Below, piece after piece: positions 27,641-40,586 of a stretch of DNA of 64,000 nt (position 1 is its first letter; each line of letters starts with the position of its first letter). Location of the stretch: the NCBI RefSeq assembly GCF_024362405.1, contig NZ_CP101454.1:3472001-3536000 (forward strand), in the 5' to 3' direction. The translations under genes were made by a program, and so were the position numbers. A model generated the notes under the pieces. That model made no database searches, was not told where the DNA came from, and saw only the letters and a list, made by a program, of their open reading frames with translations. Source of the stretch: Halorarius litoreus (GTDB taxonomy: Archaea > Halobacteriota > Halobacteria > Halobacteriales > Haloarculaceae).

Positions 27641-28537
27641 ATGTCGTCGCTCGACGCCGTCCGTCGCCCCGAACACACCGGGGAGATGCGCTGCTGGCCG
27701 TGTACCGTCGTGAATCTCCTCGTCGTGGGGGCGCTCGCACTCGTCGTCGGCCGCCGCCGCAAGGGGGTCGGGCTCGCCGTCGCCGCGGTCGGCCTCACGC
27801 TCGTCGCGCTCCGGGGATACGTCGTTCCCTACACCCCGCAGTTCGCGCCGAAACTCGTTGCGGCGTCGCCGCTGCCAGACGAGTGGTTCCACATGGAATC
27901 GGCAACCGCGACCCCACCTGTCGACGCGGTTGCCGACGAAGCGGAAGCCGGAGACGACACACCCGACCTCGACCCGGACGCCGAGCGCGACGCGGAGACG
28001 GGGCTCGCGGGCGACGAGCCCGACGGCGAGGAGCTGCTGGCGACGCTGGTCGAGGTGGGAGCAGTCACGCTCGACGGCGAGGACGTGCGGCTCGACCCCG
28101 AGTTCGAGACCGCCTGGTACGACGCCATGGAACCGCTCGCCGACCTCGACACCGAGGCACTCACCGAGGAAGTGCTCTCGGTGGCGCACGCGAAGGACGG
28201 CTTCGTCTTCGACGGCGACATGGACGACCACGAGTGGGTGGTGCTCACCGACGGCAGCGGGAGCTTCCAGGGACGCACGTGGCTCTCGCGCCCCGTCGCA
28301 ATCGCCGAGACTGCTGCGGTGCATGCCCTCGACGAGTACGTGACGGAAGCGGCGACCCGGCGTGCTGCGGCCGGGCCGCTCCGGATGTTCCTACAGACCT
28401 GTCCCGACTGTGGGACAGAGCTCCGCGAGGAGTCCGCCGCGTCGTGCTGTGGCGGCTACAACGGCCCGTCGGAGGTTCCCCCGATGGTGCTCGCTTGCCC
28501 CGACTGCCGCCAGCGGCTCTACACCTTCGACGACTAG
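27641..28537 (+). CDS. Unrecognised membrane protein with C-terminal zinc ribbon
   Basis: A 298-residue protein that I do not recognise. Two hydrophobic segments near residues 24-60 ([17 protein letters not shown] and [17 protein letters not shown]) flank a short basic loop and anchor it in the membrane. An acidic linker (about 90-130) leads to a soluble domain. The C-terminus has paired cysteines, [17 protein letters not shown] then [13 protein letters not shown], consistent with a zinc ribbon. Cys residues also precede the first helix (MRCWPC). The ATG at 27641 was chosen because upstream in-frame sequence overlaps the aldo/keto reductase promoter. Its stop interlocks with that of mgsA at a CTAG. 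Confidence 0.7.
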
Positions 28538-28905
28538 CTGCCCGAGCGCTCGCCCGCGAGCAGGTGTTCTGCGCTCGCGAGATTCGTCGCGAGCGGCACG
28601 TTGTGAACGTCACAGATTCTGAGCAGCGCTGAGATGTCGGGCTCGTGCGGCTGGGCGGTCAGCGGGTCGCGCAGGAAGACGATGGCGTCACACGTGCCGT
28701 CGGCGACCTCGGCGCCGATCTGGAGGTCACCGCCGTGCGGGCCCGACTGCTTGCGCTCGACGTCGAGTCCGGTCGCCTCCTGCAATCGGTGTCCAGTCGT
28801 CCCCGTCGCGAGCAGTTCGAAGCCGGCGAGTGTCTCGCGATGGCGGTCGGCGAACGCGACGAGGTCGTCTTTCTTCTCGTCGTGAGCGATGAGTGCGAGT
28901 CGCAT
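28534..28905 (-). CDS. mgsA: Methylglyoxal synthase
   Basis: A 123-residue single-domain enzyme that converts DHAP to methylglyoxal and phosphate. Family motifs are present: [15 protein letters not shown] at the N-terminus, [11 protein letters not shown], the phosphate loop [14 protein letters not shown], and [33 protein letters not shown]. The length fits the family (bacterial enzymes are about 150). Glycerol catabolism genes that make DHAP lie 2-9 kb to the right. It is divergent from the ROK kinase gene, with a TrmB-type near-match in the shared promoter, and its stop overlaps that of the zinc-ribbon protein. Confidence 0.92.
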
Positions 28906-29003: not shown

Positions 29004-29972
29004 ATGTACGCCGGTGTGGACCTCGGGGCCACGAACATCCGGGCGGTCGTCGCCGACAACGACGGCACCATCGTCGGCAACGACCGCCGGGGAACGCCCA
29101 CCGGGCCGACCGGCATCGCAGTGACCGAGGCGGTGTTGACCGCCCTGCGAACGGCCTGCGAGGACGCGCACGCGGACCCCGCCGACATCCGCGCGGTCGG
29201 TATCGCCTCCATCGGGCCGCTCGACCTCGCGGTGGGTGCGGTCGAGAACCCCGCGAACCTCCCCGACGCCATCGACTCGATTCCGCTCACCGGCCCCATC
29301 GAGAACCTCGTCGACTCCGAGCAGGTGTACCTCCACAACGACACCAACGCGGGCGTCATCGGCGAGCGGTTCCACAGCGACCGCAACCCCGACGACATGG
29401 CGTATCTCACCATCTCCTCAGGGATCGGTGCCGGCGTCTGTGTCGACGGCAACGTCCTCTCGGGGTGGGACGGCAACGCCGGCGAAGTGGGCCACATGAC
29501 GCTCGACCCCGAGGGCATCATGCGCTGTGGCTGTGGCAAGGACGGCCACTGGGAGGCGTACTGCTCGGGGAACAACATCCCTCGGTACGCCGAGTATCTC
29601 CACGACGACGACCCGGTCGACACCGCCCTCCCGCTCGACGACTCCGACTTCTCCGCCGCCGACGTGTTCGAGTACGCCGACCACGACGAGTTCGCGGCCC
29701 ACGTCGTCGGCCAGCTCGCGCACTGGAACGCGATGGGCGTCGCGAACCTCGTGCACGCGTACGCACCGCTCGTCATCTACGTCGGCGGCGCCGTCGCGCT
29801 CCACAACACCGACCAGGTCCTCGACCCCATCCGGGCGAAGCTCCCCGACATGGTGATGGCGAACGTCCCAGACGTCCAGTTGACGACGATGGGCGACGAC
29901 GTGGTCGTCAGGGGCGCGCTCGCGAGCGCGATGACCGGTGGGACCGGCGACCGCTCGCGAATGCGACGATGA
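29004..29972 (+). CDS. ROK-family sugar kinase (glucokinase-like)
   Basis: A 322-residue ROK kinase. The N-terminal ATP loop is YAGVDLGATNIRAVV. LHNDTNAGVIGERF carries the catalytic Asp. The zinc-binding ROK signature is GEVGHMTLDPEGIMRCGCGKDGHWEAYCSG, with its His and Cys ligands. Glucose is the default guess, though haloarchaea mainly oxidise unphosphorylated glucose, so N-acetylhexosamine or another sugar is possible. The C-terminal codons (GGTGDRSRMRR) are duplicated in part just after the stop. The start MYAGVDLGATN is unambiguous and leaderless. Confidence 0.85.
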   Translation: MYAGVDLGATNIRAVVADNDGTIVGNDRRGTPTGPTGIAVTEAVLTALRTACEDAHADPADIRAVGIASIGPLDLAVGAVENPANLPDAIDSIPLTGPIENLVDSEQVYLHNDTNAGVIGERFHSDRNPDDMAYLTISSGIGAGVCVDGNVLSGWDGNAGEVGHMTLDPEGIMRCGCGKDGHWEAYCSGNNIPRYAEYLHDDDPVDTALPLDDSDFSAADVFEYADHDEFAAHVVGQLAHWNAMGVANLVHAYAPLVIYVGGAVALHNTDQVLDPIRAKLPDMVMANVPDVQLTTMGDDVVVRGALASAMTGGTGDRSRMRR

Positions 29973-30024
29973 GCGGCTCCGGCGGGCCCACCGCTGGAGG
30001 GACCGGCGACCGCTCGCGAATGCG
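29940..30024 (+). repeat. Direct repeat duplicating the 3' end of the ROK kinase gene
   Basis: The 26-base stretch at 29940-29965 recurs without change at 29999-30024, 59 bases later. The first copy encodes the kinase tail TGDRSRM; the second lies after the stop codon. This looks like a small recent tandem duplication in which the first copy carries the functional stop. Confidence 0.75.
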
Positions 30025-30046
30025 GCGGTAGCCTCCTGCGCTGAAC

Positions 30047-31198
30047 TCACGGTTCACTGTCGTACAGCCGCCGAAACACGCGCGTCGGGAATCGCGGTTC
30101 CAGGCGGCTCGGTGGACGGCCCGCCCCGCCACGCGACTCGCCGGGGACGCGCTCGACGACACCGACCTCCGCGAGTTCGTAACAGAACCGCTTGACGGTG
30201 CTCGCCGACAGGTCGACCTCGCGGGCGATGGCGTCGCTCGCGTCGGCGATGCTCTCGACGCCGTCGAGGTCGACCAGCGCACGGAGCACAGCCTGTCGGC
30301 GTCGCGGAAGTGCCATCACGCGACCGAGCGGGACCGACGGTCGCGGCACGGCCTCCATCCCCGCGTCGAGGGCGCGGTCGTGGATGCGCCCGTGGCCGGC
30401 GACGGCAGCCTGGTCGGCTGCACCGAACAGCGCCGCGAGGCCGTCGTGGGCGTCACCCTCAGCCCACCGGACGGTACGCCGGAGCTGTTCGCGGTCGAGT
30501 GCGTCGCGGGCGATGCCTGCCGACGCGCGTTCGGTCAGGACGTCGAGCAGTGCCGACCGCTCGTAGCGACCGACGGCGAATCGTTCGGGCGGGAGCACGC
30601 CGAGGGATTCGGGAGCGGTCCGGCCGATTGCGAGCCAGGCGAGCGCCTCGAAGTCGAGGGCCTCGGAGACGCGTTCAAGCGACGGCGTCCCGGATTCACC
30701 GACGTGGTCGACGGCGACGACCGCCCGGCTCGATGGACTGGAGAGCGCGTCGTCGAGGCGTTGCCGGAGGCGGTCGGTGCCGACCCCATCGTTGGGGACC
30801 GGTTCCTCCACGACGCCGTCGAGAACGGCCCGCACGAGCGCGAACTGGCTCGTGGCGTGGCGGGCGTCCACGTAGACGAAGACGGGGGCCGACCGCGGTT
30901 GCGCACGGGTGGTGGTGAGGATGGCAGGGCTCGTCGGACCGACGAGCCGGGCGAGGTGGTCGAACAGCGCCGTGACGACGGCCGATTTGCCTGCGCCGCC
31001 GGGCCCGTGTAGGTAGCCGTTCGGGGGGAGTCGACCGGCGAACGCCGGGTCGAGATGGTCGAGCAGGCGTTCGAGCAGCGGTCCGCGACCCACCGGCTCG
31101 TCGAGGTGGGTGACGGGGCTGATGGCGTCGTAGTCGATGACGACCGGCGTCTCGTCGGCCGTCCGCTGTCGGCGACGTATCCGGTCTGCGAGGTCCAT
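30047..31198 (-). CDS. Orc1/Cdc6-like AAA ATPase with winged helix, downstream of glpK
   Basis: A 383-residue protein with the layout of archaeal Orc1/Cdc6. The N-terminal region (DEPVGRGPLLERLLDHLDPAF) precedes an AAA+ ATPase with Walker A GPGGAGKS (65-72) and Walker B VVAVDH (160-165). A lid region follows, then a winged helix from about 290 (LPRRRQAVLRALVDLDG, LSASTVKRFCYELAEVGVVERV). Walker A differs from the GKTGTGKT typical of replication initiators, and Walker B has DH rather than DE. No origin-like repeats were seen nearby. It begins directly after the glpK stop with no gap, so it is in the glycerol kinase operon. A transcriptional or sensory role is more likely than replication (inference). 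Confidence 0.75.
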   Translation of the reverse strand: MDLADRIRRRQRTADETPVVIDYDAISPVTHLDEPVGRGPLLERLLDHLDPAFAGRLPPNGYLHGPGGAGKSAVVTALFDHLARLVGPTSPAILTTTRAQPRSAPVFVYVDARHATSQFALVRAVLDGVVEEPVPNDGVGTDRLRQRLDDALSSPSSRAVVAVDHVGESGTPSLERVSEALDFEALAWLAIGRTAPESLGVLPPERFAVGRYERSALLDVLTERASAGIARDALDREQLRRTVRWAEGDAHDGLAALFGAADQAAVAGHGRIHDRALDAGMEAVPRPSVPLGRVMALPRRRQAVLRALVDLDGVESIADASDAIAREVDLSASTVKRFCYELAEVGVVERVPGESRGGAGRPPSRLEPRFPTRVFRRLYDSEP

Positions 31199-32731
31199 CT
31201 ACTCCCGTGCCCAGTCGAGCGAGCGCTCGACCGCCTCGTGCCAGCGGTCGTACCGGGCGTCGGCGGCAGCAGGGTCCATCTCGGGGACGAACTCCCGGTC
31301 GACCTGCCAGTTCGCTCGGAGCTCGTCGAGCCCCGCCCAGTAGTCGACCGCGAGCCCGGCCGCGTACGCCGCGCCGAGGGCCGTCGTCTCGTCGACCTTC
31401 GGGCGGACGATGTCCGTCCCGATGACGTCGGCCTGCAGCTGACAGAGGAAGTTGTTCTTGACCGCACCGCCGTCGACGCGCAGCGAGCGCATCTCGATGC
31501 CGGAGTCCGCCTCCATCGCCTCGGCCACGTCGCGCGTCTGGTAGGCGATGGCTTCGAGGGTCGCGCGGACGATGTGTTCACGGCCGGTTCCGCGGGTCAT
31601 CCCGACGATGGTACCGCGGGCGCGGCCGTCCCAGTGGGGGGCGCCGAGGCCGGTGAACGCCGGGACGACGTAGACGCCATCGGTGGAGTCGACCGAACGG
31701 GCGAGTTCCTCGGTCTCGGCGGGGTCGTCGATAAGCGAGACGTCCTGGAGCCACTCGATCGCGGCGCCGGTGACGAAGATGGAGCCTTCGAGCGCGTACT
31801 GCACCGGCTCGCCCGACCGCTGGAAGCCGACGGTCGTGAGCAGGCCGTGCTCGCTCTCGACGGCGTCGGTGCCGGTGTTCATCAGGAAGAACGACCCCGT
31901 CCCGTAGGTGTTCTTCCCGTCGCCCTCGTCGAAGCAGGTCTGGCCGAAGAGGGCGGCCTGCTGGTCGCCGAGTGCGCCGGCGACCGGGACCTCGGCGCCG
32001 AGGAAGCCGTCGGCGTCGGTGGTGCCGTAGTGGTCGTCGTCGCTGGAGGGGCGGACCTCGGGGAGCAGCGTCTCGGGGACGCCGAACTCCTCGAGCAGGT
32101 CGTCGTCCCACTCGAGGGCGTGGATGTCGAACAGCATCGTCCGCGAGGCGTTCGTGACGTCGGTGACGTGCGCGCCGGTGAGCTTGTAGGTGAGCCACGC
32201 GTCGATGGTCCCGACCATGAGTTCGCCGGCTTCAGCGCGGTCCCGGATGTCCTCGGGGCGGGTCCGCTGGAGCTTGATGGGGTCCGTGTTCTCCAGGAGC
32301 CACTCGATCTTCGTCGCCGAGAAGTAGGCGTCGGGCTCCAGGCCAGTCGTCTCGCGGATCCAGTCGGCTTTCTCCTCGGCCTCCAGCTGCTCGATGCGGT
32401 CGGTCGTCCGGCGGTCCTGCCAGACGAGCGCGTTGTGGACGGGCTCGCCCGTCGCAGCGTCCCACAGTACGGTCGTCTCGCGCTGGTTGGTGATGCCGAG
32501 CGCCGCAAGCTGGTCGGCGTCGATGCCGGCCTCGGAGAGCGCGCGGGTCACGACGGCCTTCGTGTTCTCCCAGATCTCCATCGGGTCGTGTTCGACCCAG
32601 CCCGGTTCCGGATAGTGCTGTTCGTGGGTCTCGTAGGCGTTCGCGACGACCTGCCCGCCGTGGTCGAACACCATGAACCGCGTCCCGGTCGTCCCCTGGT
32701 CTATCGCGCCGACGTAGCTGTCCCCTGTCAT
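31199..32731 (-). CDS. glpK: Glycerol kinase
   Basis: A 510-residue FGGY-family kinase phosphorylating glycerol to glycerol-3-phosphate. The N-terminus MTGDSYVGAIDQGTTGTRFMVFDHGG holds the phosphate-1 motif, YPEPGWVEHDPMEIW is the conserved substrate segment, and AALGITNQRETT and GTGSFFLMNTG are typical of GlpK. The phosphate-2/adenosine region (RSLRVDGGAVKNNFLCQLQADV) is also present. The length matches bacterial GlpK (about 500). It is divergent from glpABC, the natural next step. The TATA candidate on the minus strand is GTAAAGAAT near 32758. Confidence 0.96.
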   Translation of the reverse strand: MTGDSYVGAIDQGTTGTRFMVFDHGGQVVANAYETHEQHYPEPGWVEHDPMEIWENTKAVVTRALSEAGIDADQLAALGITNQRETTVLWDAATGEPVHNALVWQDRRTTDRIEQLEAEEKADWIRETTGLEPDAYFSATKIEWLLENTDPIKLQRTRPEDIRDRAEAGELMVGTIDAWLTYKLTGAHVTDVTNASRTMLFDIHALEWDDDLLEEFGVPETLLPEVRPSSDDDHYGTTDADGFLGAEVPVAGALGDQQAALFGQTCFDEGDGKNTYGTGSFFLMNTGTDAVESEHGLLTTVGFQRSGEPVQYALEGSIFVTGAAIEWLQDVSLIDDPAETEELARSVDSTDGVYVVPAFTGLGAPHWDGRARGTIVGMTRGTGREHIVRATLEAIAYQTRDVAEAMEADSGIEMRSLRVDGGAVKNNFLCQLQADVIGTDIVRPKVDETTALGAAYAAGLAVDYWAGLDELRANWQVDREFVPEMDPAAADARYDRWHEAVERSLDWARE

Positions 32732-32963
32732 CGAAAGTCACCTGACCGACCACGAATTCTTTACTGGTGGTCTAGTCTCGCTCGGCACATCTACGGACAG
32801 TCAGTTAACTCTTGGGTGACGTGTGACCGAATTGTCCCACAGAGCCACCAGATTCGGCAGTTTGTATCGAGACGGGTCGAGACAGGCCACCACAAATCGT
32901 TACTGCTGGTCGTCGGGCGACGATACATCCAAGTGGGAGCGCGCCGCAGTTCGGGACGACCGA
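32732..32963. promoter_or_regulatory. glpK-glpA divergent intergenic region (232 nt)
   Basis: It separates the divergent glycerol kinase and glycerol-3-phosphate dehydrogenase genes and must hold both promoters. A TATA-like GTAAAGAAT for glpK lies near 32758. A short palindrome AGTTAACT is at 32803-32810, and a GATACAT element near 32924 is the best candidate for glpA. No convincing match to the TACT-N7-GAGTA element is present, so glycerol uptake genes seem to be under a different regulator. Confidence 0.5.
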
Positions 32964-34667
32964 ATGGCATCGACACCCAGGGCCGTGGTCGTTGGTGGCG
33001 GCTCGACCGGCACGGGCATCGCTCGCGACCTCGCGATGCGCGGCGTCGAGGTCGTGCTCGTCGAGAAGGGCAACCTCACGCACGGCACGACCGGCCGGAT
33101 GCACGGCTTGCTCCACTCCGGAGGACGGTACGCCGTCTCCGACCAGAAGTCCGCACGCGAGTGTATCGAGGAGAACTACGTTCTCAGAGACATCGCGGCC
33201 CACTGCGTCGAGGAGACGGGCGGGCTGTTCGTGAAGCGGCCCGAGGACAGCGAGGAGTACTTTCAGGAGAAGCTCCAGGGCTGTCTCGACTGCGACATCC
33301 CCGCGGCGGTCCTCACCGCCGAGGAGGCACGCGAGCTCGAGCCGCTTTTGGCCGACGACATCGAGAAGGCCATCCAGGTGCCCGACGCGGCCATCGACCC
33401 CTTCCGGCTCTGCGTGGCGAACGCCGTCGACGCGGAACGGCACGGCGCGCGCATCGAGACGCACGCCGAGGTGACGGACGTGCTCATCGAGGATGGTGAG
33501 GTCGTCGGCGTCGACGTCGAACACGACTCCGGCCCCGGGAAGCGAACCCACCGGACGCCCGGCGAGACCGAGCGCATCGAGGCCGACCACGTCGTCAACG
33601 CGACGGGGGCGTGGGCCGGACAGCTGGGCGAGATGGCGGGCGTCGACATCGAGGTCCGCCCCTCGAAGGGCGTGATGACCGTGATGAACACCCGGCAGGT
33701 CGACACGGTGGTCAACCGCTGTCGGCCCAAAGGCGACGCGGACATCATCGTTCCCCACGAGACGGCCTGTATCCTCGGTACCACCGACGAGGAGGTGTCC
33801 GACCCCGAGGACTACCCCGAGGAGCGGTGGGAGGTCGACATGATGATCGACACGCTCTCGGAGCTCGTCCCTGTCCTCGCGGACGCCCGAACCGTCCGGT
33901 CGTTCTGGGGCGTTCGCCCCCTCTACGAACCCCCCGAGGTTGGGAGCGAGGACCCGACGGACATCACCCGCGACTTCTTCCTGCTGGACCACGACGAACG
34001 CGATTCGCTCCCCGGCCTGACGAGTATCGTCGGCGGAAAGCTCACCACGTATCGGATGATGGCCGAGTCCATCAGCGACCACGTCTGTTCGCGATTGGGA
34101 ATCGACGCCGAGTGCCGGACCGCCGACGAACCCCTGCCCGGGAGCGAACACCCGGGCGATTTGCAGGCTGCGATGGAGCGGTTCGGGCTGCGCTCGCCCG
34201 TTGCCCGTCGCTCGACCCAGCGACTCGGCTCGCGCTCGGACGAGGTACTTGCACGGTGTGACCCGAACCCCGTGCTCTGCGAGTGCGAGGCCGTCACCCG
34301 CGCCGAGGTGCAGGACGCCATCGACCAGTCGGGGACGGACCTCAACGCCGTTCGCCTGCGGACCCGCGCGTCGATGGGGAACTGTCAGGGCGGCTTCTGC
34401 AGTCACCGCGTCGCCACCGAACTCCACCCCGAGTACGACGAGCCGACGACCGACGCGGCGCTCTCGGAGCTGATTCAGGAGCGGTGGAAGGGCGAGCGCC
34501 ACGCGCTGTGGGGCGAACAGCTCTCGCAGGCCGCGCTGAAGTACACCCTGCACGCGACGACGATGAACCGCGACGCAGACCCCGCTGGGAGAGACGTCGA
34601 CTGGAGTGCGTTCGACACCGGCGAGCAACCCCTCACCGACGGTGGAGGTGACTCCGGTGGCGATTGA
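32964..34667 (+). CDS. glpA: Anaerobic-type glycerol-3-phosphate dehydrogenase subunit A
   Basis: A 567-residue FAD-dependent oxidoreductase that converts glycerol-3-phosphate to DHAP. The N-terminal FAD loop is [38 protein letters not shown] is the DAO-family substrate and flavin segment. The C-terminal BFD-like iron-sulfur domain has [11 protein letters not shown] and MGNCQGGFC. The length compares with 542 in E. coli GlpA. The start [13 protein letters not shown] was preferred; longer in-frame ATGs upstream give unlikely N-termini. Its 3' end overlaps glpB by 11 nt. With GlpB and GlpC it forms a membrane-attached complex delivering electrons to the quinone pool. Confidence 0.95.
34644..34648 (+). 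promoter_or_regulatory. Shine-Dalgarno GGAGG deciding the glpB start
   Basis: GGAGG lies 8 nt before GTG 34657, inside the end of glpA. It supports GTG 34657 as the glpB start over an earlier in-frame ATG at 34606 and GTG at 34648. Internal operon genes in haloarchaea often use such a site, unlike the leaderless first genes. Confidence 0.65.
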
Positions 34668-35928
34668 AGACGACGTCCTCGTCGTCGGCGGGGGACTCGC
34701 GGGGGTGACCGCCGCGCTCGCCGCCCGCGAGTCGGGGGCGAGCGTCCGCCTCGTCTCGGCGAAGGAAACGTCACTCCGGCAGGCGTCCGGACTCATCGAC
34801 GCGCTCGGCGTCGTGGACGGTGCGTTCGTCACGGTGCCGTTCGCGGCCATCGACCGCCTCCCGGAGACGCACCCGTACCGACTCGTCGGCGCGGAGGCAC
34901 TCCGCGCGGGCCTCGACCTGTTCGACGACCACGTGGAGGGGTACGAGGGGCGCCACACCGACGCGAACGCGCTCGTCCCCACGCACACCGGGAGCGTGAA
35001 ACCGACCGCCCGGTACCCCGAGTCGGTGACGGCCGGCCTCGTGAGTTCGGCCGCCGAGACGTTGCTGGTCGGCTTCGAGGCGCTGTCGGACTTCTCCGCA
35101 CCGTTCGCCGCCGCACATCTGACGCGAGCTGACGTCCCGTTCGACGTTCGTGGCGTCACGGTCCAATTCCCCGGCGACCTCCGCGCCGACGCGAAGGTGA
35201 CGCGCTACGCGCACCTGCTCGACGCGGACGACGACGTGCACGTCGACGGTGGGATGCTCGGTGCGCGGACGGCGCTGGCCGAGCGCGTGAAACTGCACCT
35301 CGGCGATGCCGAGCGCGTCGGCTTTCCCGCCGTACTGGGCGACGAACACGCCGCCGAAGTTCGGCTCCTGCTCGAGGCCGAACTCGGCGTCGACACCTTC
35401 GAGGTGCCGATGGGACCGCCGTCGCTGCTGGGCGCGCGGCTCCAGCGCCGGCTCTACGACGCACTCGACGACGCCGGCGTGGCCGTCGAGACGGGCAACC
35501 CGGTAGTCGACGTGTCGACCGACGACGGCCGCGTCGAGAACGTGACAGTCGAACGTGTCCACAGTCGCGTCCCGTACACGGCCGACCAGTACGTGCTCGC
35601 GACGGGTGGCCTGGTCGGCAAGGGTATCGAAGCAGACCGCGAGCAGGTCCGCGAGCCGGTGTTCGACTGCCACGTCTCTCACCCTGGCGACCGCTACGAC
35701 TGGTTCGCCGACGGCGCGTACGGCGACCACCCGTTCGCGCGGTTCGGCGTCCGTATCGACTCCGACGCGCGACCCCTGGATGCGAGTGGCGACCCCGAGT
35801 ACGCGAACCTCCGGGCCGCAGGGGCGGTCGTCGGGGGCGCGGACTTCCCCGCGGAGAAATCGGGCAGCGGCGTATCGCTGGCGACTGGACACACGGCCGG
35901 CCGACTGGCCGGGGAGGACGCGACATGA
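34657..35928 (+). CDS. glpB: Glycerol-3-phosphate dehydrogenase subunit B
   Basis: A 423-residue flavoprotein subunit (E. coli GlpB is 419). The N-terminal dinucleotide loop [26 protein letters not shown] and a late [22 protein letters not shown] / [10 protein letters not shown] segment are typical of the family. It starts at GTG after an internal Shine-Dalgarno site and ends in an ATGA overlap with glpC, so the three subunits are made in step. It probably transfers electrons between GlpA and the iron-sulfur protein GlpC. Confidence 0.93.
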
Positions 35929-37229
35929 GCAAGCCGACAGACCCCGACGATTTCGCACGGCGACTCGACGACCTGGACGTAGAGCGCGCGAACGTACTGG
36001 CTGGAGGCCAGTCGGACCTGCGGCCCGGCGCCGACGACTGCTACAAGTGCTCGTCGTGTGACGTGTCGTGTCCGGTCGCCGAGGTGGACGACTCGTTCCC
36101 CGGCCCGAAGTTCCAGGGGCCGGAACAGTGGCGGCTCAAACGACAGGACGACGTCGACATCGACCCCTCCGTCTCGAAGTGCTCGAACTGCATGCGCTGT
36201 GACACGGCGTGCCCCTCGGACGTGCCGCTCTCGCAGATGCACAACACTGCCCGGGCCGAGTACGTCGACGAGCACGTCAGTAAACTGTCGCGGGACTACT
36301 GGCGCAACCGCATCCTCGCGAACTACGGGACGCTCGCCCGGTTCGGCTCGATGGTTCCGCGGGTCACGAACTTCGTGATGGGGTCGCGGGTCGCCTCGTG
36401 GGCCAACGAGAAACTGCTCGGCATCACGAGCGAGCGGCAGTTCCCCGAGTTCGCGACCGAGACGTTCCGCGAGTGGTGGTCCTCCAGAGGGGGTGCACAG
36501 GTCGAAAGCGAGGAGAAGCGCATCGCCTACTTCCACGGCGACTACGCGAACTACAACACCCCGGAGGTCGGGAAGGCCCTCGTCCGCGTGTTCGAGTCCT
36601 ACGGCTACGAGATCGTCGTCCCCGAGCAGCGGTGTTCCGGGACGCCGATGTTCGCCAACGGGATGCTCGACGACGCGAGCCGCGCAGCCGAACACAACGT
36701 CGAGACGTTCGCGGACCTCATCGACGCGGGCTACGACGTCATCGCCTCCTGTACCTCGTGTTCGATGGCGCTCCGCCAGGAGTACCCCGAACTGTTCGAC
36801 TTCGAGGGGACCGAGGACCTCGCAGCACACACCTACGAGGCACTCGAGTACCTCCGCATCCACGAGGACGTCCGCGCGGACGTTCGCGAGAGCGAGGTGG
36901 AGTTCGACGACCTCGCGTACCACGCGCCGTGTCACGCCCGCAATCAGGGGCTCGACCGGCAGGCCGTCGAGGTGTTCGGCGACCTCGACGGCGTCGACAT
37001 CGAGGACGTGGGCGACTCCTGTTCCGGAATCTCGGGAACGTACGGCTGGAAGACGGAGAAGTACGACCTCTCGATGGCCATCGGCGAGGAGATGTTCGAC
37101 CACATGGAGGCGGCGTCCGGCGATACGGGCATGACCGAGTGTCCCACCTGTGCGATGCAGATGGAACACGGCACCGGCTACGAGATTCGCCACCCGATGG
37201 AGCTGTTAGAAGCCGCGCTGGTAGAGTAG
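35925..37229 (+). CDS. glpC: Glycerol-3-phosphate dehydrogenase subunit C, iron-sulfur
   Basis: A 434-residue protein with two N-terminal [4Fe-4S] motifs, CYKCSSCDVSCPV and CSNCMRCDTACPS. Two C-terminal CCG-type cysteine domains follow (SCTSCSMALRQEYP and DSCSGISGTYGW), as in heterodisulfide-reductase-like subunits. It anchors GlpAB and passes electrons to menaquinone. The length matches bacterial GlpC (about 400). ATG overlaps the glpB stop. The 139-nt gap after it, facing the convergent uspA gene, holds a GC-rich direct repeat. Confidence 0.95.
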   Translation: MSKPTDPDDFARRLDDLDVERANVLAGGQSDLRPGADDCYKCSSCDVSCPVAEVDDSFPGPKFQGPEQWRLKRQDDVDIDPSVSKCSNCMRCDTACPSDVPLSQMHNTARAEYVDEHVSKLSRDYWRNRILANYGTLARFGSMVPRVTNFVMGSRVASWANEKLLGITSERQFPEFATETFREWWSSRGGAQVESEEKRIAYFHGDYANYNTPEVGKALVRVFESYGYEIVVPEQRCSGTPMFANGMLDDASRAAEHNVETFADLIDAGYDVIASCTSCSMALRQEYPELFDFEGTEDLAAHTYEALEYLRIHEDVRADVRESEVEFDDLAYHAPCHARNQGLDRQAVEVFGDLDGVDIEDVGDSCSGISGTYGWKTEKYDLSMAIGEEMFDHMEAASGDTGMTECPTCAMQMEHGTGYEIRHPMELLEAALVE

Positions 37230-37849: not shown

Positions 37850-37858
37850 TATTTAAAT
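37850..37858 (-). promoter_or_regulatory. TATA box of uspA
   Basis: TATTTAAAT (ATTTAAATA on the minus strand), centred 27 nt before the uspA ATG. It is a textbook leaderless promoter, lying 11 nt from the adjacent TrmB-type element. Confidence 0.7.
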
Positions 37859-37868
37859 CTTCAAGATT

Positions 37869-37884
37869 TACTCATCTTGTAGTA
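37869..37884 (-). promoter_or_regulatory. TrmB-type site upstream of uspA (perfect match)
   Basis: On the minus strand the bases read tactacaagatgagta, an exact TACT-N7-GAGTA. The site lies 42-57 nt before the uspA ATG and immediately upstream of its TATA box. It is also just beyond the 3' end of ppc, so uspA is its only plausible target. Confidence 0.75.
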
Positions 37885-37889
37885 AAAAC

Positions 37890-40586
37890 TTATCCCGTAT
37901 TCTTCATCCCGGCGGCGATGCCCTTCACCGTGAGCCGGAGCGTCCGGACCTCGTCGTCGCTCAGGTTCGCCCGGTCGAGCAGTTTCATCTGCAGGTGGTT
38001 GAGCGGGTCGACGTACGGGTTCCGGCGTTCGAGGTTCTCCTCCAGCCAGTCGCGGCGCAGGAGGCGGTCGGACTCCGTGATCGAGAGCACGAGGTCGCGG
38101 GCTCGTTCGTACTCCTCGGTGAGTCGCGGGAAGATGCGCTCGCGGAGGTCGGGTTCCGCGAGGTCCGCGTAGCCGGCGGCGATGTCGAGATCGGTGCGGG
38201 CGAGCGACAGCGCCGCGTTGTCGAGCATCGTGCGGAAGAACGGCCACTCGGCGTACATCTCGCGCAGGGTGGCGAGGTCACCTCCCTCGTCGAGGTAGGC
38301 GTCGAGTCCCGAGGCCAGCGAGTACCAGCCGGGGATGATACACCGTGCCTGGGTCCACGAGAACACCCACGGAATCGCCCGGAGGTCCTCGACGGACCGC
38401 TCGCCGCTACGGGAGGCCGGTCGGGAGCCGAGGTTGAGGTCCTCGATGACCGTGATGGGCGTCGCCTGCTCGAAGTAGGCGACGAACCCGTCGGTTTCGA
38501 GGAGGTCTCGGTAAGCGGTCCGGGCGGCGGGTGCGGCCGTCTCCATCGCCGCCCGCCAGTCGTCAGGGATGGTCGTGTCCGCCGTCGTCATCGCCCGGTA
38601 GCGCGCACGAAGCTGCGCGTTGAGCATCTGTTCGAGGTTCCGCTCGGCGATGCGGGGGTTGGCGTACTTCTCCGCGATGGCCTCCCCCTGCTCGGTGAAC
38701 TTGACCTGCCCGGTCACGGTCTCCGCGGGGAGCGCGAGCAGTGCGTCGTTCATCGGTCCCCCACCCCGGGAGATAGAGCCACCACGACCGTGGAACAGTC
38801 GGAGGTCGACGCCGAAGTCGTCACAGATGGTCGCGAGTCGCTTCTGGTTGCGGTAGAGCGACCACTGCGCCGCGAGATAGCCGTTCTCCTTGTTCGAGTC
38901 CGAGTAGCCCAGCATGATCTCCTGGGTCCCGTTCCGAGCTTCGACCGCCGCCGCGTACGCCTCGTTCTCGAACAGCGTCCCCATGATGCGGCGAGCCCCC
39001 GAGAGGGCGTACTCGGTTTCGAGGAGGGGCACGACGTCGAGCCCACAGTAGCCGGGGAGGTCAGCCACGTCGGCCTGGTCGGCGAGGAACAGCACCTCCA
39101 GGACGTGCGACGGCTCCTCGCACATCGAGATGCAGTAGGTGTCGATGGCGTCGACACCGTACTCGCGTTGCCACTCGGCGGTCGAGTCGAACAGGTCGAG
39201 TACCTTCGTCGCCGTCTCGGAGAGCCCCTCGTGAGCCGCGATGTCGATGACCGGCTCGTCGTCGAGGACGGCCTCGGTCAGCAGGTCGACGCGCTCGGCT
39301 TCGTCGAGGGATTCGTAGTCGATTCCCTCACGGTCGAGCGCCTCGGTGACCGCCTGCGTGTGGTTCTGTTGGTGGTCGCGGAGATCGAGGCTGGCCAGCG
39401 AGAAGCCGAACGTCGATACCTGTCGGCGGATGGGGTCGACGTGTGCGTCCGCGACTGCCCCGGCCCGGTTCTCGCGGAGGTCCGCCGCGATAGCATCGAG
39501 GTCCGCGAGCAGCGCCGTGTGATCGCCGTAACCGCCCGGCCGGACGCTGTCGACGCGCGCGACCCGTTCGCGCATCAGCTTCAGCAGTTGCCGGTAGGGT
39601 TCGTTCGGGTAGCGCTGTTCGGCCTCGTCGGCGACTGCGGGCAGCGCCTCGCCGTGGACACGCAGGCGCTCGTCCACTTCCTCACCCACATCGACGCGAG
39701 TGGCGTCCTGGCTCAGCACACCCGAGAGGCGCTTCAGCGCCTGGCGGTACTTCGAAAGAACGACCGACCGTTGGCGGTCGAGCGTCTCCGCCGTTATCTC
39801 GGGGGTGACGTGGGGGTTGCCGTCGCGGTCGCTGCCGGCCCACGACCGGAACTCGAACAGTTTGGGGACGTCGACATCGCCGTACGCCTCGCCGAGTTCG
39901 GCCTCGAGTTCGTCGTAGACGGCACCCACGACATCGAACAGCGTGTTCTCGAGGTACCACTGGACGTTGAGCGCCTCGTCGGTCACCTCGGGGCGGCGAT
40001 CGCGGAGCTGTGGCGTCTGCCAGAGGCTCGTCACCTCGGATTCGAGCCGGCGTTCGACCTGCGCGGTCTCGTCGTCGGTGAGCCGGCGCTCGTCGAGCGT
40101 CTCGATGTGGTCCGCCACGGACCGGAGTTTCGCCTTCACGGTCTTCCGACGGGCCTCGGTCGGGTGCGCGGTGAACGTGGGCTCGATGAGCACGTCGTTG
40201 AGGACGGCTTCGACCTGGGCGGCGTCGGCGTCCGCCTCGACCAGTGACTCGACGGCTGCGGCGATGCTGTCAGCGATCGTGCCGGCCTGCTTGCCCTCCC
40301 GGACCGACCGGACGCGCTCGCGCTCTTCGGCGAGGTTGACGAGTTCGAAGTAGGTGGTGAACGCTCGGGCCACCGCCCCCTCGAGCTCGGTCGAGATGTC
40401 CGCGAGTTCGGCGTCGAGCGTCCCCCGTGCACCCCCGCGTCGGTCCTCGATGGCTGCCTGCCGAACGCTCTCGACGGTTTCGAACGCCTCGTCGGTCGAC
40501 TGCTCGGCGACCACGTCACCGAGCAGCGCGCCGAGCTCCCGGACGTCCTGTTCGACGTCCCTGTTGTGCAACGGCGTGTCACTCAT
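37890..40586 (-). CDS. ppc: Phosphoenolpyruvate carboxylase
   Basis: An 898-residue bacterial-type PEP carboxylase making oxaloacetate from PEP and bicarbonate, near the usual 880-930. Signatures are FTAHPTEARRKTVKAKLR with the catalytic His, SWAGSDRDGNPHVT, the glycine-rich LFHGRGGSISRGGGP, GYSDSNKENGYLAAQW, and the C-terminal LRLTVKGIAAGMKNTG. The N-terminal MSDTPLHNRDVEQDVRELGALLG is reasonable and leaderless (TATA-like AAATACTTAG at 40611-40620). A perfect TrmB-type element lies just upstream, so this anaplerotic step is probably sugar-regulated. It is divergent from fumC. Confidence 0.97.
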   Translation of the reverse strand: MSDTPLHNRDVEQDVRELGALLGDVVAEQSTDEAFETVESVRQAAIEDRRGGARGTLDAELADISTELEGAVARAFTTYFELVNLAEERERVRSVREGKQAGTIADSIAAAVESLVEADADAAQVEAVLNDVLIEPTFTAHPTEARRKTVKAKLRSVADHIETLDERRLTDDETAQVERRLESEVTSLWQTPQLRDRRPEVTDEALNVQWYLENTLFDVVGAVYDELEAELGEAYGDVDVPKLFEFRSWAGSDRDGNPHVTPEITAETLDRQRSVVLSKYRQALKRLSGVLSQDATRVDVGEEVDERLRVHGEALPAVADEAEQRYPNEPYRQLLKLMRERVARVDSVRPGGYGDHTALLADLDAIAADLRENRAGAVADAHVDPIRRQVSTFGFSLASLDLRDHQQNHTQAVTEALDREGIDYESLDEAERVDLLTEAVLDDEPVIDIAAHEGLSETATKVLDLFDSTAEWQREYGVDAIDTYCISMCEEPSHVLEVLFLADQADVADLPGYCGLDVVPLLETEYALSGARRIMGTLFENEAYAAAVEARNGTQEIMLGYSDSNKENGYLAAQWSLYRNQKRLATICDDFGVDLRLFHGRGGSISRGGGPMNDALLALPAETVTGQVKFTEQGEAIAEKYANPRIAERNLEQMLNAQLRARYRAMTTADTTIPDDWRAAMETAAPAARTAYRDLLETDGFVAYFEQATPITVIEDLNLGSRPASRSGERSVEDLRAIPWVFSWTQARCIIPGWYSLASGLDAYLDEGGDLATLREMYAEWPFFRTMLDNAALSLARTDLDIAAGYADLAEPDLRERIFPRLTEEYERARDLVLSITESDRLLRRDWLEENLERRNPYVDPLNHLQMKLLDRANLSDDEVRTLRLTVKGIAAGMKNTG

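Follow-up and report, generated by a model that had tools for sequence, protein, structure and literature searches.

A catalytically degenerate Orc1/Cdc6 relative as a predicted regulator of glycerol catabolism genes in haloarchaea

The gene orcG of Halorarius litoreus (positions 30047–31198, minus strand) encodes a protein of 383 residues that consists of an Orc1/Cdc6-derived, catalytically degenerate AAA+ domain and a C-terminal winged helix. All positions refer to the window, a 64,000-nucleotide stretch of contig NZ_CP101454.1, and the name OrcG is given here to the protein family encoded by orcG. OrcG is probably (at a probability of roughly 0.8) an Orc1/Cdc6-derived transcription factor specific to the glp genes, which would bind operators in the glp promoters and most likely repress them, with its non-hydrolysing AAA+ domain probably serving as a ligand switch. 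The ancestry, the separate clade, the glp linkage, the loss of catalytic residues and the operator with its co-occurrence were computed, and from them we infer DNA binding by OrcG, dimerization, repression and the ligand. The initial annotation had suggested an initiator-derived regulator of glycerol metabolism, and this idea is strengthened by linkage to glp genes in 83 of 84 genomes, by the separate clade and by an inverted repeat in the glp promoters that co-occurs with the gene.

Organization of the orcG locus

The plus-strand reading of 30047–31198 contains an in-frame stop codon, and the orcG open reading frame lies on the minus strand. Its ATG (31198–31196) directly follows the TAG stop codon of glpK (31201–31199) with zero gap, which agrees with the earlier observation that the gene begins at the base after the glpK stop. 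This TAG-ATG junction suggests that orcG and glpK share an mRNA. The glpK gene, coding for glycerol kinase (31199–32731, minus strand), scores above its NCBIfam cut-off. Divergent from glpK is glpA, coding for subunit A of glycerol-3-phosphate dehydrogenase (32964–34667, plus strand), followed by glpB (34606–35928, plus strand; start approximate) and glpC (35925–37229, plus strand).

On the other side of orcG, a gene for a ROK-family sugar kinase (29004–29972, plus strand) is a convergent neighbor conserved in several genomes of the same family (f1); the same convergent arrangement occurs in many f1 genomes (L098, L113–L116, L119, L121). In genome G109, orcG still stands beside the ROK kinase gene although glpK has moved away. 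A methylglyoxal synthase-like open reading frame (28534–28905, minus strand) is also found near the glycerol cluster, and a homolog adjoins orcG at four other loci (L133, L135, L143, L179).

Linkage of orcG to glycerol genes

Of the 147 genomes of the order, 85 carry orcG (E < 1e-20) and 115 carry glpK. A sample of 197 genomes from the phylum yielded no match to the OrcG profile below E 1e-45 outside the order. The initial annotation had proposed an inspection of glpK neighbors across haloarchaea and had held that a glpK link unique to this genome would speak against a role in glycerol metabolism. With the window genome excluded, 83 of 84 OrcG genomes, covering 30 of 31 genera and nine families, carry an orcG copy no more than 2 kb from a glp gene (glpK or glpABC), so the link is not peculiar to the window genome. 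Among the named genomes, a glp gene lies within 2.5 kb in 73 of 80 OrcG loci.

The linkage persists through at least five gene orders, which rules out a chance association: glpK-X-orcG, orcG-glpK divergent from glpABC, glpABC-orcG divergent from glpK, orcG convergent with glpCBA and orcG divergent from glpA, besides the glpK-orcG order of the window, which is also found in Halorientalis persicus and H. regularis. Gene X, placed between glpK and orcG in many genomes (L098, L105, L041, L120, L123), codes for a multi-spanning membrane protein and is a candidate for a glycerol uptake protein. It is probably of the type of HQ1732A, which has been noted adjoining glpK in Haloquadratum (PMC5496347). 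X is missing from the window cluster, and Halorarius litoreus has homologs elsewhere (49% identity; C1:2860848–2861858). At another locus (L079, genome G116), a second, divergent glycerol-kinase-like gene (49% identity) follows orcG after 3 bp, and the main glpK occupies another place on that contig.

Because about 30 sampled genomes have glpK without OrcG, OrcG is dispensable. At about 28 glpK loci from such genomes, the cluster is otherwise alike and orcG is cleanly missing; an HMM search of these OrcG-less glp clusters found no diverged OrcG remnants.

Orc1/Cdc6 ancestry of OrcG

The ancestry of OrcG within the Orc1/Cdc6 superfamily is real, because both the sequence profile and the predicted structure lead to the same solved protein. 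A profile of 36 OrcG orthologs matches Sulfolobus Orc1/Cdc6-1 (2qby_A) over residues 21–353 with an E value of 2.7e-30, and the AlphaFold model of OrcG (pLDDT 91) has 2qby_A as its best PDB match (Foldseek, E 1.1e-18). Both matches bear out the Orc-type layout seen in the initial annotation. The AAA+ core, the Cdc6-type lid and the C-terminal winged helix align lengthwise with solved Orc1, and the Cdc6_lid domain is found in 31 of the 36 members. The Pfam match of OrcG is AAA_16 (6.8e-16). On the NCBIfam orc1/cdc6 model TIGR02928, OrcG scores 56.9 bits against a cut-off of 181.3 and so stays below the initiator threshold.

OrcG forms its own clade apart from the true haloarchaeal Orcs. The Halorarius litoreus genome has about seven true Orc genes with high TIGR02928 scores, and the closest Orc relative of OrcG in this genome is found at only E 8e-8. 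In a phylogeny with true Orc1 proteins, which had been proposed as a check, 33 OrcG and 27 true Orc sequences are separated by one branch with an SH-aLRT support of 100 and long stems. Second OrcG copies unlinked to glp genes (L063, L084, L086, L088, L091, L117), some of them long-branched, retain the Walker-B histidine.

Nucleotide-binding site and winged helix

Walker A of OrcG (GPGGAGKS, residues 65–72; 30983–31006, minus strand) keeps Lys71 in 84% of the family. In Walker B (Asp164-His165; 30704–30709, minus strand), the position of the Orc1 catalytic acid is occupied by His in 91 of 91 OrcG sequences, as against Glu in 84% and Asp in 15% of true Orcs. At the sensor-2 arginine position, His251 (30446–30448, minus strand) is His in 97% of OrcG sequences and Arg in 100% of true Orcs. 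Residues 165 and 251 are the only well-filled columns that are both conserved and different with respect to true Orcs. The sensor-1 Asn is also replaced, and the box VII arginine-finger loop is absent from the OrcG sequences displayed in the alignment. OrcG therefore has neither the D-E or D-D Walker-B acid nor the sensor-2 Arg and box VII arginine finger of a functional initiator.

In 14 of 91 OrcG sequences, all from family f7 and still glp-linked, the P-loop Lys is changed to Thr. These linked copies carry GPxGxGTS (L065, L073, L075, L081, L082, L083, L085, L087, L089, L090, L094, L124 and others), so that the P-loop Lys and the Walker-B acid are both lost; genome G141 (L076), also of family f7, retains the P-loop Lys. 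Because the Walker-B Glu and the sensor-2 Arg are replaced by His, the arginine-finger loop is missing and f7 is without the P-loop Lys, ATP hydrolysis by OrcG is very unlikely and cannot be what the family conserves; ATP binding is possible in most members. These substitutions speak against the "ATP-dependent" function put forward in the initial annotation. Its statement that Walker A (GPGGAGKS) and Walker B (VVAVDH) are unlike those of initiators is correct in both quoted motifs and holds for Walker B, but Walker A is ordinary; the features that tell OrcG from Orcs are the altered Walker B and sensor 2 and the missing arginine-finger loop.

Other segments of the protein are kept or are its own. 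A VPxxG[VI]GT segment resembling the ISM is retained at the ISM position. A TxTR insert is peculiar to OrcG; it reads TTTR in the window (residues 95–98; 30905–30916, minus strand), is not found in true Orcs and lies in a region of low model confidence. In the recognition helix of the winged helix (residues 331–344; 30167–30208, minus strand), T334, R337 and E341 are invariant.

A predicted operator in the glp promoters

The motif scan covered the divergent spacers that separate glpA from glpK (or orcG) at 73 OrcG loci and at 21 loci to which no OrcG is linked. All 5-mer inverted repeats with spacers of 4–30 were scored with genus weighting, and dinucleotide shuffles served as the control. The top dyad is TTTAC-N19-GTAAA, found in 10.9 of 29 genera-equivalents in OrcG loci and in 1 of the 21 loci without a linked OrcG. 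The shuffles contained zero exact copies of this dyad, and the highest score of any dyad in them was 2.5. TTTAC-N19-GTAAA as the top motif of the glp promoters in OrcG genomes, obtained by an exhaustive inverted-repeat scan, is new here.

The motif follows the gene. The best match has no more than one mismatch in 53 of 73 OrcG loci and in 1 of 21 others, and this sole locus (L242) belongs to genome G109, whose orcG sits elsewhere, beside the ROK kinase gene. Five genera include genomes with and without orcG (g6, g7, g12, g24, g32), and in each of them the site tracks orcG. A Mann-Whitney test at the genus level gave p = 1e-6, with relatedness only partly controlled. When one family was left out in turn, the same top dyad was recovered every time, with held-out OrcG loci scoring high and OrcG-less loci low, which rules out circularity of the score matrix. 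A promoter-proximal motif tied to the protein, as in an Orc1-2-like transcription factor, is thus found in the co-occurrence of TTTAC-N19-GTAAA with orcG. In a genome-wide count by hand, 47 of the 55 exact matches listed for OrcG genomes lie in the glp cluster. In the 5.1-Mb genome G102, the only two exact sites among the matches listed are at glp, and 0 of 20 exact sites among the matches listed for OrcG-less genomes are there. In Halorubrum, both halves are symmetrically changed to TTCAC-N19-GTGAA on the glpK side.

The position of the sites is also conserved. At glpK the spacing is constant, with the site beginning 22 bp downstream of the first base of TTTATA; the glpA site covers the BRE/TATA region and keeps a fixed distance of 33–40 bp to the start codon. 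The window itself has putative sites at both positions, with PSSM scores of 0.4 and -0.4. The glpK-side site (32760–32788) has one good half-site, TTTACTGG, and a degenerate one (3 of 10 mismatched); the glpA-side site (32899–32927) has the half-site GTTACTG and a degenerate one with three mismatches. Because each of them keeps one half and alone is not above chance, the predicted operator is based on relatives of the window genome and not on the window's own sites. Haloferax marisrubri (L078), in which orcG is divergent from glpABC, has a weak site as well.

The best PSSM match of the window (6.6) lies off glp at 37854–37890, between a UspA-like gene and the gene for PEP carboxylase, and is probably due to chance. 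Exact copies off glp occur at G109:C1:622656 and 2367117, G046:C1:563029, G081:C227:15699 and G027:C2:234352; those of G046, G081 and G027 are mutually similar and might mark another target or factor. Two other identities of the motif were rejected. A general haloarchaeal promoter element does not account for it, since some OrcG-less promoters (e.g. L233, L225) have the TTTAC half and not the paired GTAAA half; nor is it the TrmB site, which is 19 bp long and serves a broad regulon. In principle, the operator might instead be the target of a different factor whose gene disappeared along with orcG.

Proposed mechanism and alternatives

The winged helices of OrcG, probably as a homodimer, would bind the 29-bp inverted repeat, whose half-sites are 24 bp apart. 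The operators would lie over the divergent core promoters of glpA and glpK (or orcG), where the glpK site would cover the transcription start and the glpA site the BRE/TATA region. When glycerol is absent, OrcG would most likely repress the genes for glycerol kinase and glycerol-3-phosphate dehydrogenase. The AAA+ pocket, in which two invariant His residues take the place of the Walker-B acid and the sensor-2 Arg, would probably act as a ligand switch that releases the DNA, and the candidate ligands are nucleotides and glycerol metabolites (for example glycerol-3-phosphate), alone or together. Binding downstream of the TATA box blocks the polymerase and binding upstream activates (PMC10817205). 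Because the glpK site lies downstream of TATA, a polymerase-blocking position under this rule, repression is predicted at glpK; the location of the glpA site over the BRE/TATA region would be compatible with it. The predicted sign is read from site geometry only. More tentatively, the whole clade may be a ligand-gated, non-hydrolysing "pseudo-Orc" repressor of glycerol catabolism, with a nucleotide site rebuilt on the two invariant His residues so that it would respond to a glycerol metabolite and no longer to ATP; we regard this more specific proposal as possible but somewhat doubtful.

The same operators could be used in the opposite sense, with ligand-loaded OrcG flanking the promoters and recruiting TBP/TFB when glycerol is present. 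With its fixed distance of 33–40 bp to the start codon, the glpA-side site reaches upstream of the TATA region, a location at which archaeal activators are able to bind, and in Haloferax the activation that glycerol metabolism requires is only incompletely understood (PMC12853182). We nevertheless think such a glp-local activator unlikely, because the glpK-side site, downstream of TATA and over the start site with fixed spacing, is at a polymerase-blocking position (PMC10817205) and because OrcG-less genomes retain the glp cluster. A post-translational action on GlpK or on a glycerol uptake protein, as an AAA+ adaptor or metabolite sensor with the motif belonging to a co-lost regulator, would suit the translational abutment of orcG with glpK in the window and the adjacency of orcG to gene X in many genomes. 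It is improbable in view of the conserved winged helix with its invariant T334, R337 and E341, and the motif tracks orcG in five genera. The orientation and the partner (glpK, glpC or glpA) also vary freely, a pattern more easily explained by regulation of the cluster than by a complex with GlpK.

An ATP-hydrolysing switch like Sulfolobus Orc1-2, which is turned on by ATP binding and off by hydrolysis (PMC9738581), would be in line with the P-loop Lys in 84% of the family, but it is hard to reconcile with the Walker-B His in 91 of 91 sequences, the sensor-2 His, the missing arginine-finger loop and the glp-linked f7 proteins that lack the P-loop Lys; we consider it very improbable. Least probable of all is a replication initiator that stands at the glycerol locus by chance and marks a dormant origin. 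Its sequence and fold are those of Orc1/Cdc6, and in Haloferax volcanii the likely counterpart appears in the catalogue as the initiator orc15, but orc15 is not among the origin-associated genes (PMC2841640). As the initial annotation had noted for the neighborhood of the gene, no origin-like or ORB repeat family was found in 29960–33000, and GC skew over the window has no clear inflection, which led us to reject a dormant origin. Moreover, the residues for ATP hydrolysis are lost family-wide, the glp linkage outlasts many rearrangements, and the motif is at the glp promoters even where orcG is elsewhere (G109). Because the ATP-burning parts are lost and the gene adjoins the glp genes and has a matching target in their promoters, OrcG is probably a missing switch for glycerol use and not a replication protein.

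Glycerol is the preferred carbon source of Haloferax volcanii, and the way in which its catabolism is turned on has been described as incompletely understood (PMC12853182). A candidate regulator, its predicted DNA site and its target promoters can now be named, and they are conserved over nine families. The predicted reuse concerns a replication-initiator family that has lost its ATPase residues and become a metabolic transcription factor. Some genes that carry an Orc1/Cdc6 annotation, probably with H. volcanii orc15 among them, ought to be left out of initiator counts.

Comparison with known systems

The haloarchaeal Orc1/Cdc6 initiators (TIGR02928) share with OrcG the fold, the domain order and the ISM-like VPxxG segment. 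They differ from OrcG in the TIGR02928 score (57 bits for OrcG versus 181), in clade, in Walker B (D-E or D-D, not D-H), in the sensor-2 residue (His in OrcG), in the arginine-finger loop, which OrcG does not have, and in the origin repeats, which are not found at orcG. About one third of haloarchaeal orc genes are without predicted origins (PMC3528665), which leaves room for reassigned members such as OrcG. H. volcanii orc15 (HVO_1537) has been catalogued as a replication initiator without an origin association (PMC2841640). It is probably the OrcG ortholog, judged by position and length: its locus tag is next to HVO_1538 and near glpK (HVO_1541), and its length is 400 residues. Among the papers searched, none reports a functional study of H. 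volcanii orc15 or connects an Orc/Cdc6 gene with the regulation of glycerol use.

Sulfolobus/Saccharolobus Orc1-2, an Orc1 relative that acts as a transcription factor and needs both ATP binding and hydrolysis, is like the predicted OrcG an Orc1/Cdc6-derived AAA+ and winged-helix protein acting at promoters (PMC9738581). However, Orc1-2 is a global regulator of the DNA-damage response with working Walker A and B, a 6-bp DDRE element and switching off by hydrolysis (PMC9738581), whereas OrcG has lost the catalytic residues, is encoded in a glycerol cluster and co-occurs with an inverted repeat of 29 bp. Hydrolysis resetting the switch, as in Orc1-2, is not expected of OrcG, from which the catalytic residues are absent. 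TrmB of haloarchaea is, like the predicted OrcG, a winged-helix regulator of carbon metabolism whose effect is set by the position of its site relative to TATA, but it has another fold outside the winged helix, a different 19-bp motif and a broad regulon (PMC10817205). Bacterial GlpR of the DeoR family and haloarchaeal GlpR resemble OrcG, in its predicted role, as regulators tied to glycerol use, and belong to a protein family unrelated to it. STAND/AAA_16 regulators such as MalT fuse a P-loop NTPase switch to a DNA-binding domain and control catabolic genes. Unlike MalT-type proteins, OrcG combines an Orc1-type lid with a winged helix and lacks a sensor repeat domain, and its best matches among solved structures are Orc1/Cdc6 proteins.
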